Positions 45,705 to 58,454 of a stretch of DNA of 64,000 bases are shown piece by piece. This stretch comes from Gemmatimonadales bacterium. Its GTDB lineage: Bacteria > Gemmatimonadota > Gemmatimonadetes > Gemmatimonadales > GWC2-71-9. The notes under the pieces were generated by a model. That model was not told where the DNA came from and made no database searches. It saw only the letters and a program-made list of their open reading frames with translations. The stretch is from assembly GCA_036500345.1 (NCBI GenBank), contig DASYCE010000011.1, positions 124,001 through 188,000 on the forward strand, in the 5' to 3' direction. Each line of letters opens with the position of its first letter. Position 1 is the first letter of the stretch. A program made the position numbers and the translations under genes.

Positions 45705-46739
45705 ATGTCGATCGAAACCGAGCACCAGCCGACCCGCCGGTCATTCCTGTGCCAGGGAGCGAGCATCGCGCTCGCCCTTCCGGCTGTGAGCGCCGTCGTC
45801 GCCGCGTGCGACCGCCCCAAGGCTGCCGCTGCAGCTGCTGCGAAGCCCGTCGCGCCACCGCTGACGCCGCGCCAGAAAGCCGACGCGATGGATGCGGTCC
45901 ACGAACGGGGAATGAAGGCGTTTCCGGCAAAGACCACCGGTGTCGGTAGCGTCGATCTGGCGCCGCGCATTGAGCACGGCGTCAAGATCTTCGATCTGAC
46001 CGCGGAGAAGATCCAGTGGGAGACGCAGCCCGGGAAGATGGTGGAAGCATTCGCCTACAACGGGATAGTCCCCGGTCCGACGATCCGCGTCCGCGAGGGT
46101 GACCGAGTCGAGGTGAATCTCATCAACAAGCTCGACCAGTCGACGGTGATTCACTTCCATGGCCTCGAGCTCCCCAACGACCAGGACGGCGTGCCCTTCA
46201 TCACCCAGCCGCCGGTCAAGCCGGGGGAGACCTACACCTATCGCTTCACGGTGCCGAACGCCGGGTCGCACATGTACCACTCGCATCACAACTCCGCCGA
46301 GCAGGTGAGCAAGGGGATGCTCGGCGCGTTCATCGTCGAGCCACGGGATCCGAATCCGGCGCACCGCGCCGACATCGACGCGCTGATGATCCTCAACGAC
46401 GGCGTGCATGGCTACACGCTCAATGGCAAGTCATTCCCCGCAACCGCGCCGATCGTCGCCAGCAAGGGCCAGACAGTGCGGATCCGTTTCATGAATGAAG
46501 GGATGATGATCCACCCGATGCACCTGCACGGGATGCACATGACCGTGATTGCGAAGGACGGGTGGGATCAGCCGCAGCCGTGGAAGTGCGACACGCTCAA
46601 CATCGCGCCCGGTGAGCGCTGGGACGTGCTGGTCAAGGCGAACAATCCGGGAACATGGGCATTCCACTGCCACATCCTGCAGCATGCCGAGAGCATGGAA
46701 GGGATGTTCGGGATGGTGACGGCGCTGGTGGTCACATGA
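45705..46739 (+). CDS. Two-domain multicopper oxidase, Tat-exported
   Basis: A 344-residue protein with a twin-arginine signal (TRRSFLCQGASIALALPAV). Each half is a cupredoxin. Copper ligands: HFHG 150-153 and HSH 192-194 in domain 1; HPMHLHG 270-276 and HCHILQH 321-327 in domain 2, closed by GMFGM. The only type 1 cysteine is in domain 2 (Cys 322), which is the arrangement of two-domain laccase-like oxidases that form trimers. Copper nitrite reductases instead carry type 1 copper in domain 1, so it should not be called NirK. The ATG has GGAG 7 bases upstream. It sits 118 bases before nosZ on the same strand; its substrate is unknown. Confidence 0.9.
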   Translation: MSIETEHQPTRRSFLCQGASIALALPAVSAVVAACDRPKAAAAAAAKPVAPPLTPRQKADAMDAVHERGMKAFPAKTTGVGSVDLAPRIEHGVKIFDLTAEKIQWETQPGKMVEAFAYNGIVPGPTIRVREGDRVEVNLINKLDQSTVIHFHGLELPNDQDGVPFITQPPVKPGETYTYRFTVPNAGSHMYHSHHNSAEQVSKGMLGAFIVEPRDPNPAHRADIDALMILNDGVHGYTLNGKSFPATAPIVASKGQTVRIRFMNEGMMIHPMHLHGMHMTVIAKDGWDQPQPWKCDTLNIAPGERWDVLVKANNPGTWAFHCHILQHAESMEGMFGMVTALVVT

Positions 46740-46857: not shown

Positions 46858-48867
46858 ATGTCACTGTCGAGACTGAGCTGTTCCCTGATCGTCGCGAGCG
46901 CCGTTGCGGCGACCGCCTGCCGCACTCCCGCGCCGCAGGACCTCCTCACCGGCGACGCTGCCCGGGCGGTGTACGTCGCACCCGGCCACTACGATGAGTT
47001 CTACGCCTTCCTCTCCGGCGGCTACAGCGGCCAGGTCGCGGTGTACGGACTACCCTCGGGGCGGCTCCTCAAGGAGATCCCGGTCTTCTCGGCGTTCCCG
47101 GAGAATGGCTACGGCTACACCGAGGAGAACCGCGCACTGCTGCAGACGACGTACGGGATGGTGCCGTGGGATGACACCCATCATCCTGAACTGTCGCAGA
47201 CCAATGGTCTCCCCGACGGCCGCTGGCTCTTCATCAACGGCAACAACACGCCGCGCATCGCGCGCATCGACCTGACCCGATTCGAAACCGATGAGATCAT
47301 CCAGATCCCCAACTCGGCGGGCGGGCATGCGTCGCCGTTCACCACCGGCAATTCGGAATATGTCGTCTCCGCGACGCGCTTCTCGGTTCCGGTGCCGAAC
47401 AGCGACGTGCCGATCGCCGACTACAAGGAACGTTTCAAGGGGACGTTGTCGTTCGTGCGCGCCGACCAGCCGGGGAAGATGGACATCGCTTTCCAGATCC
47501 TGATGCCGGGGTACGACTACGACCTTGGCCACGCCGGCAAGGGACCGTCCGACGGCTGGTTTTTCTTCACCAGCTACAACAGCGAGCAGGCGTACACCAA
47601 GCTCGAAGTGAATGCATCGCGCAACGACAAGGACTACATCGCCGCGGTGCACTGGAAGCTCGCCGAGCAGTGCGTCAAGGATGGCAAGGCACACCGCACG
47701 CCGGCGGAGTACGATCACAACTACGTCGACGAGAAGAGCCGCATCGCGGTCACCGAACGCAAGCACAGCGTCCTGGTCCTGAAGCCGGAGGATTGTCCCG
47801 GCGTCGTCTACCTGATTCCCACGCCGAAGTCGCCGCATGGCGTCGATATCGATCCGACCGGTGAATACATCGTCGGTGGCGGCAAGCTCGCCACGGTGAT
47901 CCCGGTGCACTCGTTCACGAAGATGCAGCAGGCGATCGCCGCGAAGGCATTCGATGGCGATCTCGACGGCATCCCCGTGCTCAAGTACGAAGCCGTCCTC
48001 GCGGGCGAAGTGCAGCACCCGGGCCTCGGGCCGCTGCACACCGAGTTCGACGGGAAGGGATACGCCTACACCTCGATGTTCATCTCGTCCGAGGTGGTGA
48101 AATGGAAGCTGGGAACGTGGCAGGTCGTCGATCGGGCGCCGACGTACTACTCGATCGGCCACCTGATGATCCCCGGCGGCGATTCGCGCCAGCCGTGGGG
48201 GAAGTACCTCCTGGCGATGAACAAGATCACCAAGGACCGCTACCTCCCGACCGGCCCGGAGCTCGACCAGTCGGCACAGCTCTTCGACATCAGCGGCGGG
48301 AAGATGCGACTCCTCCTCGACTTCCCCACCGTCGGCGAGCCGCACTACGCACAGGCACTCCCCGCGTCGTTGATTCGCGCGCGGCAGGTGAAGTTCCTCG
48401 CGCTCGCCGGCAACACCAATCCGTACGTGGCTCGCAGCGAGGCGGACGGCGGGATCACGCGCAGCGGCAAGGCCGTGCACGTCAAGATGATTGCGATCCG
48501 CAGCCACTTTGCCCCGGACAATCTCGAGGGGGTGATGCTCGGCGACACGGTGTACTTCCATGTCACCAACATCGAGCAGGACTGGGACATCGTCCACGGC
48601 TTCGCGGTCCTGGGGATGAACACGGCGAACCTGATCCTTCTGCCCGGTGAGACGCGCACGTTGCGCTGGGTCCCCCAGGAGGTCGGCGTCTTCCCGTTCT
48701 ACTGCACCGACTTCTGCAGTGCGCTGCACCAGGAGATGCAGGGGTACATCCGCGTGAGTGCGCCGGGGAGCAACGTGCCGCTCACCGCCAACACCTCCCC
48801 CAAGGCGGCAACACAGCAGGCGCGGATGCCGATGAACCATGGCAGCATGAAAGGGGCTGGGCGATGA
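46858..48867 (+). CDS. nosZ: Nitrous oxide reductase, clade II (nosZ)
   Basis: A 669-residue periplasmic enzyme reducing N2O to N2. The signal (SRLSCSLIVASAVAATAC) is Sec-type, not Tat, as in clade II enzymes; the cysteine at 21 could be lipidated. The N-terminal propeller carries the CuZ histidines: 108 and 109 in DDTHHPELSQTNG, 157 in GGHASPF, 327 in KSPHGVD, 394, 435 in SIGHLMIPGG and 496. The C-terminal cupredoxin domain carries CuA: His 580 in DIVHGFAV, Cys 616 and 620, His 624 and Met 627 in CTDFCSALHQEM. The ATG has GAGG 5 bases upstream. The next gene overlaps by 4 bases. The C-terminus ends in a short Met/His-rich tail. Confidence 0.97.
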   Translation: MSLSRLSCSLIVASAVAATACRTPAPQDLLTGDAARAVYVAPGHYDEFYAFLSGGYSGQVAVYGLPSGRLLKEIPVFSAFPENGYGYTEENRALLQTTYGMVPWDDTHHPELSQTNGLPDGRWLFINGNNTPRIARIDLTRFETDEIIQIPNSAGGHASPFTTGNSEYVVSATRFSVPVPNSDVPIADYKERFKGTLSFVRADQPGKMDIAFQILMPGYDYDLGHAGKGPSDGWFFFTSYNSEQAYTKLEVNASRNDKDYIAAVHWKLAEQCVKDGKAHRTPAEYDHNYVDEKSRIAVTERKHSVLVLKPEDCPGVVYLIPTPKSPHGVDIDPTGEYIVGGGKLATVIPVHSFTKMQQAIAAKAFDGDLDGIPVLKYEAVLAGEVQHPGLGPLHTEFDGKGYAYTSMFISSEVVKWKLGTWQVVDRAPTYYSIGHLMIPGGDSRQPWGKYLLAMNKITKDRYLPTGPELDQSAQLFDISGGKMRLLLDFPTVGEPHYAQALPASLIRARQVKFLALAGNTNPYVARSEADGGITRSGKAVHVKMIAIRSHFAPDNLEGVMLGDTVYFHVTNIEQDWDIVHGFAVLGMNTANLILLPGETRTLRWVPQEVGVFPFYCTDFCSALHQEMQGYIRVSAPGSNVPLTANTSPKAATQQARMPMNHGSMKGAGR

Positions 48868-49493
48868 CCCGCCGCGGCCGCATTCTCCTCGCAATCGCCG
48901 CGCTGCTGACGATCGCCGCGCTGATCCTCCCGCTCTGGACCGTTCGGCTGGTCGCGCCGCAGTATCCCGAAGGGCTCGGACTGGCGATCCGGACCAGCAC
49001 TGTCGTCGGGCTCAAGCCCGGCGACCTGCTCAGCATCAATGAATTGAATCACTACATCGGGATGCGTGTGATCGTACCGAACGCGATTCCCGAACTGGCG
49101 TGGATGCCGAAGATCGTTGCCTTCCTCGCGGCGATTCTGCTGATCGCCGCCGCGTTCGGGTCGCGCCGGCTCGCGGCGGCGTGGTGCGTCCTTGCGGTGG
49201 CGCTCGCTGCCGCCGGCATCTGGGACTTCCATCGCTGGGAATATGACTACGGCCACAATCTCGATATGGCGAACGCGATCATCGTCATCCCGGGGATGAG
49301 CTATCAGCCTCCGCTGCTGGGAAGCAAGCAGCTGCTCAACTTTACCGCGACATCATGGCCGGCGAGTGGCACTCTGGCTCTCGGCGGCGCGATGATTCTC
49401 GTTGCACTTGCTGCCGCGGACCGAAAGCGCACTTCGCGCCGCCCCGTTCCGATCGTGCCGGCCGTCCCTCATCTCGCCGGGACGCCAGCGTGA
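48864..49493 (+). CDS. NosB-like membrane protein of the nos cluster
   Basis: A 209-residue membrane protein with about four helices (8-28, 75-95, 100-118, 160-185). Between them lies a periplasmic segment with GLKPGDLLSINELNHYIGM and a later one with YDYGHNLDMANAIIVIPGMS. Genes for such proteins follow nosZ in clade II clusters and are called nosB; their role is not defined, perhaps electron transfer or assembly. It overlaps nosZ and nosD by 4 bases on either side (ATGA and GTGA), so translation is coupled throughout. Confidence 0.82.
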   Translation: MTRRGRILLAIAALLTIAALILPLWTVRLVAPQYPEGLGLAIRTSTVVGLKPGDLLSINELNHYIGMRVIVPNAIPELAWMPKIVAFLAAILLIAAAFGSRRLAAAWCVLAVALAAAGIWDFHRWEYDYGHNLDMANAIIVIPGMSYQPPLLGSKQLLNFTATSWPASGTLALGGAMILVALAAADRKRTSRRPVPIVPAVPHLAGTPA

Positions 49494-50719
49494 TCGCAGT
49501 GCTCGCCGTCGCCGCCATGCTGCAGTCTCCGCTGGTCGTTTCGGTCACGGGGCCATACACCAGCATCGCTGCCGCAATCACGGCGGCGCCTGCCGGTGGC
49601 ATCGTGGTGGTACGAGCCGGTGTCTACGCCGAGCCGACGATCACGATCAATCGCGCCATCACCCTCGCGGGCGAACCGGGCGCGATTCTCGATGGCGGGG
49701 GGACGCATGCAATCATCATCGTGCACGCCGACAGCGTCACGATCCGCGGCCTTGAATTCCGGAATACCGGCTTTGCGTACAAGGAAGACCGTGCCGCGGT
49801 GCGCGTCGTCGATTCGCACGACTGCACCATCGACGGCAATCGCTTCACGCACACCTTCTTCGCGATCTATCTCGCCCGGGCGACCGGCTGCACCGTACGC
49901 AACAACACGATCACCGGCGTTCCGGGACGCGAGGCAGTCAGCGGCAACGGCATCCATCTCTGGTCGTGCCGCGAGATCGCCGTGCTGGGGAACACGATCC
50001 GTGGCCACCGCGACGGGATCTACCTCGAATTCACCCGCCACGCCGACGTGCGCGGCAACGTGAGCGAGGGGAATGTCCGGTACGGGATGCACTTCATGTA
50101 TTCCGATTCCTCCAGCTATACCGGGAACACCTTCCGCTCCAATGCGAGCGGCGTCGCGGTGATGTACACCCGTGTCGTCGCAATGCACGGCAACCTTTTC
50201 ACCTCGAATCACGGCCCGGCCTCGTACGGTCTCCTCCTCAAGGAGATCCAGGACGCACACCTCGACTCCAATACCTTCCGCGGCAACACCGTCGGGCTGA
50301 TGGCAGACGGCGCCGACCGGCTGGTGGCAACGCGCAATCAATTCATCGACAACGGCTGGGGTGTCCGGCTGCTGGCCAGCACCGGCGACGGGCGATTCGA
50401 GGCGAACGCGTTCGCCCGCAATTCATTCGACATCGCAGCCAACGGCGACGGCAACAGCACCGATCTCGACGGCAACTGGTGGGACGGTTATCACGGCTGG
50501 GATCTCGATCACGACGGCGCTGGTGATGTGCCGTATCGCCCGATGCGCCTCTTCGCCGCATTGGTCGAGCGCTCGCACCCGGCACTCCTCTTCCAGCACG
50601 CCCTCTTCGTCCGGCTCCTCGACGCCGCCGAACGCGTCCTCCCGGTGCTGACGCCGGCGAGCGTCGTCGATCACCACCCGCTGATGCGCGATCCGATGAT
50701 CGCGAGGGAATCACGATGA
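49490..50719 (+). CDS. nosD: NosD, periplasmic copper-sulfide maturation protein
   Basis: A 409-residue exported protein of the right-handed parallel beta-helix type. The signal is VIAVLAVAAMLQSPL. Many helix turns show the CASH/PbH1 pattern with N-T and G-N repeats: DSHDCTIDGNRFTHTFFAIY, GCTVRNNTITG, EIAVLGNTIRGHRDGIYLEF, SSYTGNTFRSNASGVAVMYT, and the conserved end GNWWDGYHGWDLDHDGAGDVPY. NosD works with the NosF/NosY transporter to assemble the CuZ cluster. The GTG start at 49490 overlaps the nosB-like stop (GTGA); an upstream frame of 45 codons belongs to another reading frame of that gene. Confidence 0.95.
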   Translation: MIAVLAVAAMLQSPLVVSVTGPYTSIAAAITAAPAGGIVVVRAGVYAEPTITINRAITLAGEPGAILDGGGTHAIIIVHADSVTIRGLEFRNTGFAYKEDRAAVRVVDSHDCTIDGNRFTHTFFAIYLARATGCTVRNNTITGVPGREAVSGNGIHLWSCREIAVLGNTIRGHRDGIYLEFTRHADVRGNVSEGNVRYGMHFMYSDSSSYTGNTFRSNASGVAVMYTRVVAMHGNLFTSNHGPASYGLLLKEIQDAHLDSNTFRGNTVGLMADGADRLVATRNQFIDNGWGVRLLASTGDGRFEANAFARNSFDIAANGDGNSTDLDGNWWDGYHGWDLDHDGAGDVPYRPMRLFAALVERSHPALLFQHALFVRLLDAAERVLPVLTPASVVDHHPLMRDPMIARESR

Positions 50720-51438
50720 TTACGCTGCACCGCGTATCGAAACGGTTTGGCCGGACGGTGGTCCTGCAGGATGCGAGCGCCGACATCCGCGCGGGACGGA
50801 TCACCGCGATGATCGGGCCGAACGGCGCCGGCAAGACGACGCTGCTCAAGCTGATCCTCGGCCTGGCGACCCCCGACCGCGGCACGATCCGAGTCGGTGG
50901 TCACCTGCTCGATGGCTCGCCGGACTACCGCGACGCCATCGGGTACGTCCCGCAGATCGTCCGCTTTCCGCAGCAGCTCACCGGACGCGAATTGCTGGCA
51001 ACGTTCGCGGCGCTCCGGCCTCGCGCACTCAAGCCCGACCTCTCTCTTGCAGCGGCGTTCGGCGTCACCGACGCACTCGATCGCCCGCTCGGCCTCCTCT
51101 CGGGCGGCACTCGGCAGAAGATCAACACGGTGCTCGGATTTGCCTTTCGGCCACAGCTGTTGATTCTCGACGAACCGACTGCGGGGCTCGATCCCGTCGC
51201 GAGCCGGGCGCTCAAGAACCGGCTGATCGGGGCGCGGACCGCGGGCGCCACGGTGCTAATCACATCGCACCTTCTGACTGAGCTCGAGGAATTGGTCGAC
51301 GACATCGTCTTTCTTGCCGACGGATCGATCCAGTGGGAAGGCTCGGTCGAACAGCTCGAGGCCACGACCGGTCAGTGCACCCTTGAACGAGCCGTCGATC
51401 GCCTCTGGGCGCGCCCCTCGCTCCAGGCGGTCGCATGA
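50716..51438 (+). CDS. nosF: NosF, ABC ATPase for NosZ maturation
   Basis: A 240-residue ATPase. Walker A GPNGAGKTTLLKLI (about 35-48), signature LLSGGTRQKI, Walker B LLILDEPTAGLDPVASR, and the switch His in ITSHLLTELEEL are all intact. NosF powers the NosY permease, which acts with NosD in supplying sulfur for the copper-sulfide centre. The start overlaps the nosD stop by 4 bases. Length matches the family. Confidence 0.95.
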   Translation: MITLHRVSKRFGRTVVLQDASADIRAGRITAMIGPNGAGKTTLLKLILGLATPDRGTIRVGGHLLDGSPDYRDAIGYVPQIVRFPQQLTGRELLATFAALRPRALKPDLSLAAAFGVTDALDRPLGLLSGGTRQKINTVLGFAFRPQLLILDEPTAGLDPVASRALKNRLIGARTAGATVLITSHLLTELEELVDDIVFLADGSIQWEGSVEQLEATTGQCTLERAVDRLWARPSLQAVA

Positions 51439-52226
51439 ACGCCGTCGCCCGGTTCGGCGGCGTCACCTTGCGCGGATCCTCGCGCTATCGCGGCCTCGTC
51501 GCGACTGCCGCGATCCTGATGATCGCCGGCGAATTGCTGATCCGCTTCGGCGGCGGCGGCCTGGCCACGATCGTCTCGCTCCTCGACGTGGTATTGATCG
51601 TGACGCCGCTCGTGGCGCTCGTCGCGGGGACGGTGCAGGTGCACCAGGCGCGCGAAGTCACCGAACTCCTGCTGGCTCAGCCGGTGACGCGACGCACCGT
51701 CTTCATCGGACTCTACCGCAAGACTGTGCTGCCGCTGATGGCGACGCTGGCGATTGGTCTCGTCGCACCATTTGTGTGGCACGGCCTGCTCGACGCCGCG
51801 ATGCTCGGTCAACTCGGCGGGCTCGTGCTTGCCGCGTGGGCGCTGGCGATGATCGGCTCGGCGCTGGCCTTCGTGATCGCGGTTGCGATCGAAAACCGGG
51901 TGCGCGCCCTCGGCGTGGCGCTGGCGGCGTGGCTCGCTGCCGCGGTCCTCTGGGACGGCGCTCTCCTTCTCGGCGCGATGGTGTGGGGCGACCGTCCGAT
52001 CGAGCTCCCGCTCCTCGGGCTTCTCGCTTTCAACCCGATCGACCTCGCTCGGGTGCAACTCCTCATAGGCACCGACGCAGCGGCGCTCTCCGGCTACACC
52101 GGCGCAGTGGTCCAGCACGTGATTGGCACATCGGCAGGACATCTCTACCTGATCGTCGCACTGACGCTCTGGCTCATCGGGCCGCTCTGGTTCGCGGCGA
52201 AAACCTTCCAACGAAAAGACTTCTAG
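51435..52226 (+). CDS. nosY: NosY, ABC permease for NosZ maturation
   Basis: A 263-residue permease with six membrane helices (about 20-40, 47-68, 98-118, 128-150, 158-180, 238-257). The text VHQAREVTELLLAQPVTRRTVFIGLY is the conserved loop of NosY and related ABC-2 permeases, and LLAFNPIDLARVQLL is a NosY-type motif. It overlaps nosF by 4 bases. No nosL follows; the next gene encodes a cupredoxin lipoprotein. Confidence 0.93.
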   Translation: MNAVARFGGVTLRGSSRYRGLVATAAILMIAGELLIRFGGGGLATIVSLLDVVLIVTPLVALVAGTVQVHQAREVTELLLAQPVTRRTVFIGLYRKTVLPLMATLAIGLVAPFVWHGLLDAAMLGQLGGLVLAAWALAMIGSALAFVIAVAIENRVRALGVALAAWLAAAVLWDGALLLGAMVWGDRPIELPLLGLLAFNPIDLARVQLLIGTDAAALSGYTGAVVQHVIGTSAGHLYLIVALTLWLIGPLWFAAKTFQRKDF

Positions 52227-52234
52227 GAGATTGT

Positions 52235-52678
52235 ATGTCGACAGCACGGGTACAAGGACTCTTCCTCTTCTGCAGCGCACTGTCCCTCATCGGGTGCGGC
52301 AAGGGGCCGGTGGCAACAAACGACGCGGCCACGCCACCCTCGGCCGCGAGCGTAGCCGCGCCCGCCGCTGCAAAACCGACCCGTACCATCATCGCCATCA
52401 CCCTCGTCACCGACGAGAAGGGCAGCCGCTTTGAACCGGCCGCAGTGACGGCCAAGCGCGGAGATCTCCTTCGGTTCACGCTTGGTGCCGGCGTGCACAA
52501 CGTGGATTTCCTCGCCGACAGCAACGCCGGTGTCGCGGGACTGCCCGCGCCGAGCGAGATGCTACAGCTGCCGCAGCAGACCTTCGACGTTCCGGTCAAC
52601 TTCCCCGCGGGGACCTATTACTTCCAGTGTGATCCGCACGCACCACTCGGGATGACGGGCAAGCTGAAGGTGGAGTAA
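52235..52678 (+). CDS. Cupredoxin (plastocyanin-like) lipoprotein
   Basis: A 147-residue lipoprotein (VQGLFLFCSALSLIGC; Cys 21), then a flexible Ala/Pro/Ser linker and a cupredoxin domain. Type 1 copper ligands are complete: His in GAGVHNVDF, Cys in YYFQCDPHAPLGM, with His and Met in the same loop. AGGAGA lies 4 bases from the ATG. It starts 8 bases after nosY, so it belongs to the same transcript. I infer a periplasmic electron carrier to NosZ or a copper supplier. A strong hairpin follows. Confidence 0.9.
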   Translation: MSTARVQGLFLFCSALSLIGCGKGPVATNDAATPPSAASVAAPAAAKPTRTIIAITLVTDEKGSRFEPAAVTAKRGDLLRFTLGAGVHNVDFLADSNAGVAGLPAPSEMLQLPQQTFDVPVNFPAGTYYFQCDPHAPLGMTGKLKVE

Positions 52679-52916: not shown

Positions 52917-53594
52917 ATGAACGATCTACGTGGGTTGTTAGCGGTGGGCGTGGTGATGCTCGGTGGATCGCTCGCACCGCTTCAGCTCGCGGCCCAGAGC
53001 GACACCATTCCGGTCACCGCCCCCGCCGCCCCCGCCGCAACCGTCGGCATCGCCGGACCGCCGTCGCGCTGCGACATCTGCCACGTCGCCGATTCGGCGG
53101 CGATGCCGCAGCAGCGGCCGATGGCGATTCAGCTCTCCAACGGCTATTACACTCGCCTCCACATTCACCTGCTGGCGAGCTACGTCACCCTTCCGGTGAT
53201 GGCCACCGAATTCGTCCTCGGCGAGAAGCTCATCAGCGATGAGCGGCAGGGACTGCGCGGATCGTCGGCCCTCACCGGCGCGCACAGCGCCACGGCGATC
53301 GCGCTGGTGTCGCTCTTCGGAATCAACACTGTCACCGGCGTGCTCAACCTCTACGAAGCGCGGCATGTTTCGGACGGACGAGTGCGGCGCACCATTCACT
53401 CGATCCTGATGCTCGCCGCCGATGCCGGTTTTGCCTACACCGCATCGGTCGCCGGCTCAGCCAAGCTTCGCCGCGATGTGACGCCCACGCCCGGGACGCT
53501 CCCATCAGGGGCGGACCGCCACCGCACCGCGGCGATCGCATCGATCTCCGTTGCCACCGCGGCAACCCTCATGATGTGGATCTGGAAACACTGA
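52917..53594 (+). CDS. Four-helix membrane protein with single CxxCH heme motif
   Basis: A 225-residue protein not assigned to a named family. A signal peptide (LLAVGVVMLGGSLAPLQLAA) precedes a periplasmic stretch with one CxxCH motif (Cys 52, Cys 55, His 56 in RCDICHVADS), which would attach heme c. Four membrane helices follow (about 82-102, 122-145, 158-180, 203-223). Histidines lie near helix ends at 82, 84, 123 and 161, positions that could bind heme b, as in cytochrome b561-type bundles. I infer a membrane electron carrier. Its stop overlaps the next gene's ATG by one base. The ATG at 52917 starts the signal; the preceding 32 open codons have no support. Confidence 0.78.
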   Translation: MNDLRGLLAVGVVMLGGSLAPLQLAAQSDTIPVTAPAAPAATVGIAGPPSRCDICHVADSAAMPQQRPMAIQLSNGYYTRLHIHLLASYVTLPVMATEFVLGEKLISDERQGLRGSSALTGAHSATAIALVSLFGINTVTGVLNLYEARHVSDGRVRRTIHSILMLAADAGFAYTASVAGSAKLRRDVTPTPGTLPSGADRHRTAAIASISVATAATLMMWIWKH

Positions 53595-54103
53595 TGATCG
53601 ACGCACCCGGACTGGTTCACTTCTTCGCGCCGTGGAAAGAGATCTATTCCAACTCGCCGGTGGTCGATACCGGCGTGATCTTCGTGCATCTCGCCGGGAT
53701 CCTGATCGGAGGCGGGACGGCGCTCTTCACCGATCGCGCCACGCTCCAGGTCCGCAACGGAGAAAGTGAAGCGGCGCGCGCTGCCGCCATCGAACTCCAG
53801 GAATCCCATCGCGTCGTCGTCGGGTCGCTGGTGGTGGTGCTCATCAGCGGGATCGCCCTCGCAACGTCCGACCTTCCGACCTTCTTGCACGCGCCGCTCT
53901 TTGCGGTCAAGCTGGCGTTCGTGACGCTGCTGGTGATCAACGGCGCGCTGCTGATCCGGGCCGAGCGGGTTTTCGGCGAACCGTCGAGCGGCGCGGAACG
54001 TTCAGATCGAACCTGGAAGGGAGTGCGACGCCACGCCCGTGCGTCGCAGGTCCTCTGGCTCTGCACCCTGCTTGCGGGCACCGCACTGGCGAACCTTACA
54101 TGA
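53594..54103 (+). CDS. Four-helix membrane protein, possible heme b carrier
   Basis: A 169-residue protein with four helices (about 24-45, 72-92, 100-122, 150-168). Histidines at 32, 72, 99 and 147 lie at or inside helix ends. The segment VVDTGVIFVHLAGILIGGGT and ESHRVVVGSLVVVLISGIAL resemble small DUF2214-like or DoxX-like membrane proteins. Function is unknown; its place between a CxxCH protein and a Rieske protein suggests quinol oxidation. An in-frame GTG at 53576 is the alternative start. The next gene overlaps by 4 bases. Confidence 0.75.
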   Translation: MIDAPGLVHFFAPWKEIYSNSPVVDTGVIFVHLAGILIGGGTALFTDRATLQVRNGESEAARAAAIELQESHRVVVGSLVVVLISGIALATSDLPTFLHAPLFAVKLAFVTLLVINGALLIRAERVFGEPSSGAERSDRTWKGVRRHARASQVLWLCTLLAGTALANLT

Positions 54104-54621
54104 GCGAGATTGAGCGGGAGGACGTGGGCGCCTGCCCGTCATGCGAAGCGATCGACCGGCGGGTCTTCGTCGAGCGCGCGTCGATACTCGCGGCGTCTGC
54201 GCTCCTGAGCCTCGGCGTGCCGCGCCGAGTGCTGGCGATGATGCGGCCGATCCCGGTCGATGCGATCGCGCGGCGCGGGAGCACTGTCTCGTACCCGGTT
54301 CCAGCTGCGGACGGCGCCCAGATCGACAAGTCGAATGGTGTCATCATCACGCGCTGGCAGGGGGTCGTGATCGCCTTCAACCTCGCCTGCCCGCATCAGC
54401 GAGCGCCGTTGCGGTGGAACGGCCAGGATGCCCAGTTCGAATGCCCCAAGCACCACTCGCACTATCTCCCCGATGGTACGTACGTCTCGGGTCGCGCCAC
54501 TCGGTCGATGGACCGGCTGGCGATCACGAAGACGGCGAGCGGGGTTGAGGTCAATCTCGACCAGATGTTCAAGGAGCCCGACAACCCGGCGACGTGGAAG
54601 GCGGCAGAGGTCACGGTGTAA
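54100..54621 (+). CDS. Rieske [2Fe-2S] protein with Tat-type signal
   Basis: A 173-residue protein. A twin-arginine motif (DRRVFVERASILAASALLSL) precedes a Rieske domain. Cluster ligands are Cys 97/His 99 in ACPHQ and Cys 115/His 118 in ECPKHHSHY. The second cysteine pair that forms a disulfide in bc1-type Rieske proteins is missing, so the cluster potential may be lower. An N-terminal CPSC pair precedes the signal and is unusual. It overlaps the previous membrane gene by 4 bases. I infer the electron-transfer subunit of a small quinol-oxidising complex. Confidence 0.88.
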   Translation: MSEIEREDVGACPSCEAIDRRVFVERASILAASALLSLGVPRRVLAMMRPIPVDAIARRGSTVSYPVPAADGAQIDKSNGVIITRWQGVVIAFNLACPHQRAPLRWNGQDAQFECPKHHSHYLPDGTYVSGRATRSMDRLAITKTASGVEVNLDQMFKEPDNPATWKAAEVTV

Positions 54622-54650: not shown

Positions 54651-55045
54651 GTCGACATCGTCGAGGCGTCGGTCGACTTGTACAAGGCGTCGGTGCGACC
54701 CGCCGGCGCGTTTGCCTCTTCCGCAAGCCGTCCGGGTGACCCGACAGCGAAATCAGTCTCTTCCGCAAGCCATTCGTCTCTTCCGCAAGCCATCCGGGTA
54801 ACCCGACATCGAAATCAGTCGCCCCCGCAAGCCGTTCGTCGACTTGTACAAGGCGTCGGTGCGACCCGCCGGCGCGTTTGCCTCTTCCGCAAGCCGTCAG
54901 GGTAACCCGACAGCGAAATCAGTCTCTTCCGCAAGCCGTCCGTCTCTTCCGCAAGCCATCCGTCTCTTCCGCAAGTCGTCCGGGTAACCCGACATCGAAA
55001 TCAGTCTCTTCCGCAAGCCGTTCGGGTGACCCGCCGTCGCGTCTG
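54651..55045. repeat. Composite minisatellite
   Basis: Interleaved repeats fill this stretch. A 13-base core TCTTCCGCAAGCC starts at 54717, 54759, 54779, 54883, 54925, 54945, 54965 (one change) and 55007; adjacent copies are 20 bases apart. A 25-base unit beginning GGGTRACCCGACA and ending AAATCAGTC starts at 54734, 54796, 54900 and 54982, with a partial copy at 55024. A larger unit starting GTCGACTTGTACAAGGCGTC occurs at 54672 and 54838, period 166. Neither 20 nor 166 is a multiple of three, and no frame is kept, so it is not coding. It follows the Rieske stop by 29 bases and could end that transcript. Confidence 0.85.
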
Positions 55046-55335: not shown

Positions 55336-56049
55336 CTACTTGCGGCGCCGCCGCTTCATCCCGGCGCCAGCCATCCCGACGAGCCCGGTGGCGAGGAGCG
55401 CCATCGTCGACGGTTCGGGGACGGAGCTGACGTCGGCGAGCGTGCCGCCGATGCCGTAGGAAAAGTCCGTTTCATCGGAAGCCACATCGGTGGTCGGGAC
55501 GAAATCTACGGCGAAGAAACTACTGTTCCAAAAGCCGGAACCGTTGATATTCGAGTTGACGCCTGACGCTCCGCTGGTTGTTGTGACGAAGTCTCCACCA
55601 GTGCCGTTGCCAACGACCGAAATCCCCATCCAGTACGTCCCCGGCGCGAGGAAGAACGACAACCCGCTGATATGTGCCTGATACTCCTCCAACGAGAACG
55701 GGCTCGTCAATTCATCGGTCTGGGTCACAGCCCCGGATCCTGATTGGACCAACGTGCCGCCATTCCCGGTGCTCATGCCGCTTCGAATCTCCCATTGCGC
55801 GCCCTGCCACTGGACGGTGCCCACGAACAGACCGTACAGGTCAGTCACATTCCACCCCGATCCGCCGACGACGAAGTCGTCGTAAACCATCGACTGGCTG
55901 ACGCCCGTATTGAAGTCGCTGGACAACGCGTCGAGCCCGTTGGGAGTCCCGTTGAAAAACAAGTTCTGCGCTGATGCCGGGGCAGCAACGAGCCCCGCGA
56001 GCAGCGAAAGAGCTGCGAGGGAACGAACCAGCACGCTGGGTGTCTTCAC
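55336..56049 (-). CDS. PEP-CTERM exported protein (copy A)
   Basis: A 237-residue secreted protein. The signal peptide (VKTPSVLVRSLAALSLLAGL to ASAQ) and the C-terminal sorting signal (VPEPSTMALLATGLVGMAGA then MKRRRRK) are clear. The middle is a beta-rich domain with QSMVYDDFVVGGSGWNVTDL, WEIRSGMS and SGLSFFLAPGTYWMGISVV. PEP-CTERM proteins are processed by an exosortase and usually reach the surface or extracellular matrix. The GTG at 56049 is chosen because GGAGG lies 4 bases upstream and copy B starts the same way. Function of the domain is unknown. Confidence 0.93.
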   Translation of the reverse strand: MKTPSVLVRSLAALSLLAGLVAAPASAQNLFFNGTPNGLDALSSDFNTGVSQSMVYDDFVVGGSGWNVTDLYGLFVGTVQWQGAQWEIRSGMSTGNGGTLVQSGSGAVTQTDELTSPFSLEEYQAHISGLSFFLAPGTYWMGISVVGNGTGGDFVTTTSGASGVNSNINGSGFWNSSFFAVDFVPTTDVASDETDFSYGIGGTLADVSSVPEPSTMALLATGLVGMAGAGMKRRRRK

Positions 56050-56235
56050 GATTCCTCCAAAGGAATTGGAACAGCAACTCAAGCGAGATATTCGAATCGA
56101 CTCCGCAAATCTCTGTCGCGCTCCGTCGACAGAATCGTTGGCGGGAAGCCACAGCGTGCTCGCCAGACCAGCATCGCAACTACCGGCGGATCAAGGCTTT
56201 GCGGTAATTTTGCGTCGGAACGAAGAGTGGTTCAG

Positions 56236-56277
56236 CAAGAAACAAACCAGCGCGCCTCGAGTTCGAGAGCGCGCTGG
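56236..56277 (-). terminator. Terminator of the second PEP-CTERM gene
   Basis: The same CCAGCGCGC/GCGCGCTGG stem with a CTCGA-type inner extension and TTTGTTTCTTG downstream, located 26 bases after the stop of copy B. Confidence 0.88.
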
Positions 56278-56302
56278 CGAGAGGAGAAATCTTTTGCGCT
56301 GA

Positions 56303-57022
56303 CTACTTGCGGCGACGCCGTTTCACGCCGGCGCCGGCCATTCCGACGAGGCCGGTGGCGAAGAGCGCCATCGTCGACGGTTCGGGAACGGTGTTGATCT
56401 CCGCGGCGGTCCCTTCGACGTCGTACGCAAAGTCGGAGGGCCCCGTGAGCCCGGCATCCTCGGCAGAAGCGAAGTCCGCTCCGAAGAACGAGCTATTCCA
56501 GAACGCGAGCAGGTCAGGATCGGAATTCACCCCGCCCGAGCCGCTGGTCACTTCCACGAACGCCTGACCACCCGAGGTACCGTTGATGAGCGAGATCCCC
56601 ATCCAGTATGTCCCCGGCGCGAGAAAGAACGACAATCCGCTGATGTCGGTCTGATATTCCGTCAGGCCGACAACGGTATTGCCGGTCGCTGTCATTGCCA
56701 TGCTCGATGTTCCTGACTCAAGCAGCGACCCGCCGTCCCCCAGAGATATGCCGCTCCGGATCTCCCATGCCGCCGTCGACGTGAGATACTGGCTCAGGAA
56801 ATACCCCGACAGACCGGTGACATTCCATCCTGATCCACCCACGATGAAATCGTCGTAAATCATCGACTGAGAGACGGATAGATCCTGTTCGCTGGAGACC
56901 CCGCCAACGCCGTTCGGCAGTCCGTTCAGGAAGAGTGTCTGCCCGTGGGCCGGGACCGTGCCGAGCGCCAGCAGCAGCGACGCACCCGCAAACGAGCGGG
57001 CGAGGAAAGCAGGAATCTTCAC
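56303..57022 (-). CDS. PEP-CTERM exported protein (copy B)
   Basis: A 239-residue paralogue of copy A. Signal KIPAFLARSFAGASLLLALG to AHGQ; the core shares QSMIYDDFIVGGSGWNVTGL, WEIRSGIS, and ISGLSFFLAPGTYWMGISLI; the sorting signal is VPEPSTMALFATGLVGMAGA then VKRRRRK. Start codon GTG with a GGGGG ribosome site. The shared domain is probably a carbohydrate-binding-like or structural beta-sandwich, but this is not shown. The duplicate pair differs most in the loops. Confidence 0.93.
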   Translation of the reverse strand: MKIPAFLARSFAGASLLLALGTVPAHGQTLFLNGLPNGVGGVSSEQDLSVSQSMIYDDFIVGGSGWNVTGLSGYFLSQYLTSTAAWEIRSGISLGDGGSLLESGTSSMAMTATGNTVVGLTEYQTDISGLSFFLAPGTYWMGISLINGTSGGQAFVEVTSGSGGVNSDPDLLAFWNSSFFGADFASAEDAGLTGPSDFAYDVEGTAAEINTVPEPSTMALFATGLVGMAGAGVKRRRRK

Positions 57023-57200
57023 AAATCCCCCAGGGCAACGCAGGTTGTGAACAGGACAGGACGATCGCGGGCGAAACTGTGTTGAGCGTCATCGACAGAA
57101 ACGTCGAGCCGATGCCACGGACAAACCGACTCCCCTTATCAAAACTTCCGGCGGAACCATCAATTGCGGAACGGGGGAGGTGGATCGACGATGGTTTGAG

Positions 57201-57242
57201 CAAAAAACAAACCAGCGCGCCTCGACATCGAGAGCGCGCTGG
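57201..57242 (-). terminator. Terminator of the third PEP-CTERM gene
   Basis: The third copy of the CCAGCGCGC/GCGCGCTGG hairpin, followed on the minus strand by TTTGTTTTTTG, the best T-run of the three. Confidence 0.9.
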
Positions 57243-57267
57243 CGAAGGAATGAAGCTCGCCCGCAGA

Positions 57268-58197
57268 CTACTTCCGGCGGCGCCGCTTCACCCCGGTCAG
57301 CCCGATCAACCCGAGCCCCACCATCATCATCGCCGACGGTTCCGGTGCCAGATCCTGATCGGTATCGGGGTTGTTGATCTCATCGATCTGCAGTGAAAAA
57401 TCGGCGTTGAACGTCGGCGCCGAGAAGTTCGGCACAGATCCACCCGGCGCGCCGACGTCCGATGAGAATTCGGAGAACTCACCGTTGCCGCTCCAGCCGC
57501 CCGTTCCGGTGATCGAAGGACCCGAGGGTGCATTGAACGAATTCCCCTGGTCGTTCTCGCCCTGGCTGTTGCCGTCCTGATTCCGGCTGACCGAGTTCGT
57601 CACCACCGTACCGCCGCTCGCGAAGGTGTTCACCCCGCTCCCACCATTGAACGAACTCGGCCCGTCGCCGCCGATCGTATGGTGGCGGTTGAAATCACTC
57701 GACACCGGTGCTGTGCCCCCGTTGCGCGACGTCGGAATTCCACCGCTGAAGGTGCTCCCCGGGCTGCCCCAGCCGATGCCACCGGGCCCGCCACCGCTGC
57801 CGGAAGCGCCCAGCCCCACGATCGCGGGGAGACCGGCGAAGTACCACGCCGACCCGCCGCCCCAGCCGCCGCTCGTCCCGTTCGACGTCATCGGCACTGC
57901 GCCGTGGTCATCGGCGTAGTTGACGTCCAGCAGCGGCAGCGGCGCGGCTGGCCGAGCCAATTCCGGACCCCGCAGCGCGCCGAGGAGGTTGCCGCCGGAC
58001 GGATCGCTCCAGCTGAGTGCGAAGGGGATCAGCACCACCGGCTTCAGTGCCGTCAGCTTGGGAAGCTTGCGGGCGATGGCCAGCTGCATGTTGTTCGCGG
58101 TCGGCTTCTCGCGGCTGCATCCGGTCATTGCAGCTATGAGGGCTGCGGCACCGAGTACCGAGGCCCTGTCGAATCCGGTGTGATGGTGTGTTTTCAT
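57268..58197 (-). CDS. Glycine-rich PEP-CTERM exported protein (copy C)
   Basis: A 309-residue secreted protein unlike copies A and B in its core. The N-terminal signal (FDRASVLGAAALIAAMTGC) also reads as a lipobox. A long low-complexity region rich in Gly, Ser and Asn follows (for example GLGASGSGGGPGGIGWGSPG). The end is a sorting signal, APEPSAMMMVGLGLIGLTGV then KRRRRK. The glycine-rich part suggests a flexible surface or matrix protein. The ATG at 58197 starts the signal; the frame is open 23 codons further upstream. It shares the terminator type of copies A and B. Confidence 0.85.
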   Translation of the reverse strand: MKTHHHTGFDRASVLGAAALIAAMTGCSREKPTANNMQLAIARKLPKLTALKPVVLIPFALSWSDPSGGNLLGALRGPELARPAAPLPLLDVNYADDHGAVPMTSNGTSGGWGGGSAWYFAGLPAIVGLGASGSGGGPGGIGWGSPGSTFSGGIPTSRNGGTAPVSSDFNRHHTIGGDGPSSFNGGSGVNTFASGGTVVTNSVSRNQDGNSQGENDQGNSFNAPSGPSITGTGGWSGNGEFSEFSSDVGAPGGSVPNFSAPTFNADFSLQIDEINNPDTDQDLAPEPSAMMMVGLGLIGLTGVKRRRRK

Positions 58198-58454
58198 GTT
58201 GGCTTGTGACGACCCGCGGCGCGCATCGTACACACCTGATTCGCACAGCTCTTGAGGCTGTCTCACGGCTTACATCAGCACATCCTCTTCGTGATCTCCT
58301 CGCTATCATCTTCGAGCGGGAAATTGCGCCGCAATTGTGGCCGACTCGCTACAAATCGACGTCGCCGTCGAAAAATCTGTGGCGAACGATTGGCGAACTG
58401 TGGTCCAATGAAAGCACTGAGGCGTCGAGGAGCTCTCCGGCTCCGAACTGTTCC

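Follow-up and report, generated by a model that had tools for sequence, protein, structure and literature searches.

Three overlapping genes in the 64,000-nucleotide stretch of Gemmatimonadales DNA analysed here (the window) encode two four-helix membrane proteins and a Rieske protein, and almost certainly constitute a genuine conserved module. The first gene, P1 (52917–53594, + strand), encodes an exported membrane protein of four helices in which four histidines are invariant, a putative two-b-haem protein with distant likeness to DUF4079 and cytochrome b561. The second, P2 (53594–54103, + strand), encodes another four-helix membrane protein, which resembles DUF6644, DUF2214, HemJ and CopD proteins, and the third, R1 (54100–54621, + strand), a Tat-type Rieske [2Fe-2S] protein. 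The original prediction of three overlapping genes directly after the nos operon is borne out in the window: the genes are co-directional, their stop and start codons overlap, and P1 starts 238 bp 3' of the cupredoxin gene that ends the nosZ-nosB-nosD-nosF-nosY cluster. In a Pfam scan of the single proteins only R1 exceeded a family cut-off (PF00355, at 1.2e-7), with P1 and P2 giving sub-threshold matches to DUF420 and UPF0093.

Of 101 relatives, 40 have a P1 homologue, as do 122 of the 395 genomes sampled across the Gemmatimonadota (approximately 30%). An R1-directed scan of public genome contigs, covering 84,980 species, retrieved 142 relatives, and the locus counts given here refer to the best 80 of these 142. 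They are mainly Gemmatimonadota, including Longimicrobiaceae records, and several are labelled Vicinamibacterales or Acidobacteria. P1, P2 and R1 are directly consecutive on one strand in 52 of the best 80 R1 loci, and contig ends truncate many of the others; P1 and P2 are both present in 55 of the 67 loci in this set that have at least 2.5 kb upstream of R1. Recurrence of the gene order across the Gemmatimonadota and some Acidobacteriota (Vicinamibacterales) indicates that the trio is a true conserved module. Records holding all or part of it include Gemmatimonas phototrophica (MAG, L195), Gemmatimonas sp. UKL202c (MAG, L207) and Roseisolibacter sp. H3M3-2 (L154). No named complex of P1-P2-Rieske composition was found in literature searches, to which subscription journals were mostly closed, and no named complex or family at its curated cut-off covers the trio, the exceptions being the Rieske domain and a small number of P2 relatives that barely pass DUF6644. 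The suggestion that these proteins form a conserved redox module without a name is supported.

In P1, H84, H123, H161, H202 and M220 show no variation at any covered position among 104 distinct sequences. The AlphaFold2 model (mean pLDDT 80, with the helical part mostly above 90) contains four long helices, at residues 75–110, 117–150, 155–177 and 198–222, and one conserved histidine lies near the N-terminal end of each. If these are antiparallel transmembrane helices, two histidines would be placed at each membrane face, as expected for two bis-histidine b haems, and we consider it probable that P1 binds b haem. Helix-end histidines had been pointed out in the original prediction, which allowed that they might prove variable; the case is stronger than was claimed, with four in P1 and two in P2, all invariant where covered. 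The topology signals are mixed, as the signal peptide would place the start of helix 1 outside, yet helices 2 and 3 are joined by an arginine-rich loop. Distant Pfam matches among 42 P1 members include DUF4079 (28/42, best 1.3e-5), prokaryotic cytochrome b561 (8/42) and Ni_hydr_CYTB, and in none of 61 genomes was DUF4079 found above its curated cut-off. In eukaryotic b561 proteins, four helices in a row each carry a histidine. P1 shares with the cytochrome b561/DUF4079 proteins the four conserved histidines on four successive helices, but differs from them in falling below the curated cut-off, in its signal peptide and in being tied to Rieske genes. No solved structure resembles P1 or P2 convincingly, every fold match having E > 0.09; these matches are generic four-helix bundles and were rejected as a guide to identity. 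In the PDB, P1 also has weak sequence matches to 4D2, a haem protein made by design, and P2 has some to designed repeat proteins; these seem to reflect composition and were likewise set aside.

The N-terminal linker of P1 carries a CDICH motif (53070–53084, + strand), which had been taken as a haem c site. The motif is present in the window, but it is unique to the window genome: CxxCH occurs in one of 102 distinct P1 N-termini, the window copy. A few relatives from the same genus have CxxC without the histidine, and all remaining P1 proteins have neither. Haem c was therefore rejected as a feature of the P1 family and does not define the module, and P1 differs in this respect from c-type cytochromes.

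P2 has five invariant residues, H32, H72, D93, K106 and N116, in 99 sequences. Its AlphaFold2 model has four long helices (mean pLDDT 93), in agreement with the earlier description of a second histidine-bearing four-helix protein. Distant matches of P2 members are to DUF2214, DUF6644, UPF0093 (HemJ) and CopD. Pfam matches of single P1 and P2 members lie under the curated cut-offs, some P2 proteins excepted; in G018, G005 and G073 the match at the P2 gene passes the DUF6644 cut-off, and the P2 of the window lies below it.

The cluster-binding stretch of R1, C97-P-H99 ... C115-P-K-H118, is encoded at 54388–54453 (+ strand). The first ligand pair is conserved in 124 of 124 homologues and the second in 123, the exception being a gap. 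No cysteine is found at the disulfide positions in an alignment of 34 R1 proteins, in all of which S120 and Y122 are invariant; this Ser/Tyr pair is also kept in most of a wider homologue set, which probably includes some proteins of a second Rieske type, R2 (see below). Such a pair is associated with high Rieske potential (PMC12954380). Thus R1 is, as originally described, a Tat-type Rieske protein without the disulfide, having the CxH...CxxH motif and a twin-arginine N-terminus. Just before the twin arginine there is a CxxC (C12, C15, R20 and R21; 54133–54162, + strand), of which C12 is present in 108/108 and C15 in 109/111 covering sequences. The CxxC ahead of the twin arginine, which would lie on the cytoplasmic side, is often seen in R2 too.

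The R2 gene is present in 44 of the best 80 R1 loci. Its product has a twin arginine followed by a lipobox, characteristic of a Tat lipoprotein, and mostly Ala/Phe at the positions of the Ser/Tyr pair of R1. This predicts a lower potential for R2, effect sizes being given in PMC12954380. Some R2 proteins (L081, L095, L098 and L099) contain two tandem Rieske domains. R2 is absent from the window genome, where the R1 profile retrieves only R1.

Comparison with known systems reveals partial likeness to several. As in the bc1 and b6f complexes, a transmembrane protein with a predicted b-haem pair is encoded beside a Rieske protein, and R1 has sequence matches to b6f Rieske proteins. However, neither P1 nor P2 matches the cytochrome b profile (PF00033), the trio is without a conserved haem c subunit, R1 is without the disulfide, and many relatives of the trio add a lipoprotein Rieske. 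Alternative complex III differs in that neither P1 nor P2 has an NrfD match and NrfD is not encoded in the trio cluster. AioB, the small subunit of arsenite oxidase, is also a Tat-type Rieske protein, and that of Rhizobium NT-26 lacks the disulfide and is still functional (PMC3758308). R1 nevertheless scores 27.7 bits against TIGR02694, for which the cut-off is 95.65; its CxxC near the N-terminus and its tail are conserved features of its own, and a scan of ten neighbour families turned up no gene resembling that of AioA, the molybdenum subunit. When R1 is compared with proteins of solved structure, the best sequence matches include 9rk3 and 9rk4, Rieske proteins from the anammox organism Kuenenia stuttgartiensis. 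To judge from their titles, these are the proteins of PMC12954380, which are found in Rieske/cytochrome b complexes and, unlike R1, possess the disulfide.

We consider it about as likely as not that P1, P2 and R1 assemble into a small quinol-linked complex for membrane electron transfer, working through b haems and the Rieske protein. In the mechanism proposed, the four-helix bundle of P1 would hold two b haems, one per membrane face (H84 with H161, and H123 with H202), and P2, as a second four-helix subunit of HemJ/CopD/DUF6644 type, would probably provide a further haem or quinone site. Electrons would enter the b haems of P1, with P2 assisting, from what we assume is most likely menaquinol. 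R1, exported by Tat and membrane-anchored, would take them from the membrane part and pass them to periplasmic carriers. In many relatives the lipoprotein Rieske R2 may join the chain after R1; in the window, which has no R2, R1 could donate to the adjoining cupredoxin, the natural acceptor in place of a haem c, and the cupredoxin to NosZ. The co-conserved gene order, the four P1 histidines, the distant matches of P1 to DUF4079 and b561 and of P2 to the HemJ/CopD/DUF6644 group, the R1 ligands with their Ser/Tyr pair, the R2 lipobox and, in the window, the position of the trio after nosY and a cupredoxin gene all favour this model. No sequence feature was found that indicates menaquinol oxidation, and in the best 80 R1 loci neither the cupredoxin nor NosZ is generally linked to the trio. 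As a hypothesis for the module, the idea of a minimal bc1 analogue is still reasonable. A bolder proposal is that the trio, with R2 where present, represents a class of quinol:electron-carrier oxidoreductase not described before: a b561-type two-haem four-helix protein, instead of a bc-type cytochrome b, would be paired with a Rieske protein as a solution independent of bc1, and in the window the module would have been recruited for N2O respiration. This we regard as rather doubtful.

The nos cluster of the window begins with nosZ (46858–48867, + strand; TIGR04246, 920 bits), whose product is a nitrous-oxide reductase of clade II (Sec-type) with a lipobox-like sequence at its N-terminus. Immediately 3' is a gene for a NosB-like membrane protein (48864–49493, + strand); nosB directly downstream of nosZ has been described for clade II (PMC11409646). 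There follow, on the same strand, nosD (49490–50719), nosF (50716–51438) and nosY (51435–52226), and finally the gene for a lipoprotein cupredoxin of the type 1 copper, plastocyanin-like kind (52265–52678, + strand), which is a candidate acceptor for the trio and donor to NosZ. Some relatives also have a cupredoxin gene after nosY although the trio is missing from their nos cluster. Lipobox-like signal peptides are present on NosZ (VAATAC), on the cupredoxin (LIGC) and on an upstream two-domain multicopper oxidase encoded at 45705–46739 (VVAAC), which suggests that N2O reduction here may be membrane-tethered. The NosZ of relative G002 also has a lipobox-like start (VLAAC).

The proximity of the trio to these genes had been read as a dedicated quinol:NosZ complex with haem c, and both the CDICH motif in P1 and the position of the trio, directly after nosY and the cupredoxin, speak for it. 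Published maps of nos clusters already mark genes for Rieske proteins and for b- and c-type cytochromes in the neighbourhood of nosZ (PMC11237620). Like the known electron supply of clade II nos systems (NosG, NosH, NosC1, NosC2 and the 'S' Rieske), the window has a Rieske gene near nosZ; the trio differs in being mostly away from nos genes and in having no NosG- or NosH-like member. Indeed, nosZ, nosD, nosY and the nosB-like gene are found in none of the best 80 R1 loci. Among the nos loci examined in relatives, some of them short contigs, the trio is nearby only in G002, where opposite-strand genes, one of them CRP/FNR-like, lie between it and nosZ. The ends of two G002 contigs overlap by 421 bp at 94% identity, so that an ECF/anti-sigma/TonB cassette, the trio, R2 and nos may all be neighbours in that genome. 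In three relatives from the same genus (G001, G004 and G009) the trio and nosZ are on different contigs, and in G067 (4,636,964 bp) they are 760 kb apart.

Across the 395 phylum genomes, nosZ is present in 58 of 122 with the trio versus 74 of 273 without it (Fisher p = 1e-4, kinship ignored), and this co-occurrence makes a loose functional tie possible; no association was seen among near-complete relatives outside the family of the window genome. In addition, 64 of the 122 trio genomes have no nosZ, and 74 of 132 nosZ genomes have no trio. Together with the loss of the haem c site from the family definition, these distributions refute the dedicated quinol:NosZ complex as a general statement, and we consider that reading very improbable. 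The surroundings of the R1 loci and the nos loci of relatives likewise rule out a nos-specific complex in general. Dedication to NosZ would be, at best, a local recruitment in the window, and a role of the trio in the N2O respiration of this species can be put forward only tentatively, the balance being somewhat against it.

Other readings of the module draw on its neighbours, which recurrently include an ECF/anti-sigma/TonB cassette, kinases, peptidases and similar genes. A subset of loci has genes for an ECF sigma factor, an HxxxCxxC anti-sigma factor and a TonB-dependent receptor beside the trio, at least two of the three being present in 10 of the best 80 R1 loci. Among relatives from the same genus, the trio adjoins a TonB-receptor/anti-sigma cassette in G001, G004 and G009, with the ECF sigma gene too in G004. 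The cassette occurs on either side of the trio in the Gemmatimonadota (L061, L063, L075, L131, L148, L155 and others). This gene pattern is common in metal uptake and stress regulons, and its recurrence hints at regulation of the trio. The b-haem/Rieske chain might then be an outward reductase, driving periplasmic reduction of a metal or siderophore, or the repair of oxidized proteins, rather than a respiratory branch. The lower potential predicted for R2 from its Ala/Phe residues (PMC12954380) would suit such a role, but the cassette is missing from most loci, no reductase or oxidized-substrate enzyme is linked, and R1 mostly keeps the high-potential Ser/Tyr pair, so we consider an outward reductase, the main rival to the quinol-linked model, unlikely. 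No linked catalytic redox enzyme emerged from the neighbour analysis of R1 loci. It is more improbable still that the trio is a unit for haem or metal maturation or sensing, with P2 as a HemJ- or CopD-like protein, P1 as a haem sensor and the Rieske proteins as electron acceptors in assembly. Matches to HemJ (UPF0093), CopD and DUF420, and the ECF and anti-sigma genes that adjoin some loci, point in this direction; the matches are, however, all weak and common to several b-type families, and haem-biosynthesis or copper genes are not consistently linked.

Quinol-linked electron transfer by the trio has also to be set against other quinol oxidisers. In the window genome nothing matches cytochrome b (PF00033), and two NrfD proteins are encoded elsewhere (C17 and C27), consistent with alternative complex III. 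NrfD proteins are encoded in all 72 near-complete genomes of the relatives set, which suggests that another quinol oxidiser is available. PF00033 is found in 24 of 40 genomes with the trio versus 32 of 61 without it. The trio thus occurs both with and without PF00033, and in the company of NrfD; its presence is independent of cytochrome b, and it was rejected as a replacement for a missing bc complex and is not a simple stand-in for bc1.

The Gemmatimonadota are common soil bacteria, some of which consume N2O. A conserved putative b-haem/Rieske module without a name, in approximately 30% of their sampled genomes, represents a gap in the electron transport known for the phylum. Should the trio indeed oxidize quinol, nature would have a second design in which transmembrane b haems are coupled to a Rieske protein. 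This would bear on the origin of such complexes, and on the route by which electrons reach NosZ in bacteria without a cytochrome bc complex, as in the window genome.

The window copy of the module is divergent. In the R1 tree its R1 has the longest branch of all, at 1.93 changes per site, and falls outside the well-supported clade (100/99) formed by relatives from the same genus. Its P2 is 37–39% identical to theirs, whereas those relatives share 48–61% identity among themselves. The window copy could have diverged rapidly after relocation or been acquired from elsewhere; long branches are unreliable, and the tree therefore does not choose between the two. A scan for promoters and terminators gave nothing exceeding chance. 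Further downstream, three genes on the minus strand (55336–58266) encode secreted proteins with PEP-CTERM-like sorting ends (PEPS...KRRRRK). Between these and the trio, starting less than 100 bp past the R1 stop codon, is a series of decayed direct repeats (54709–55033) with periods of 20, 42 and 62 and a unit around GTCTCTTCCGCAAGCCGTCC.
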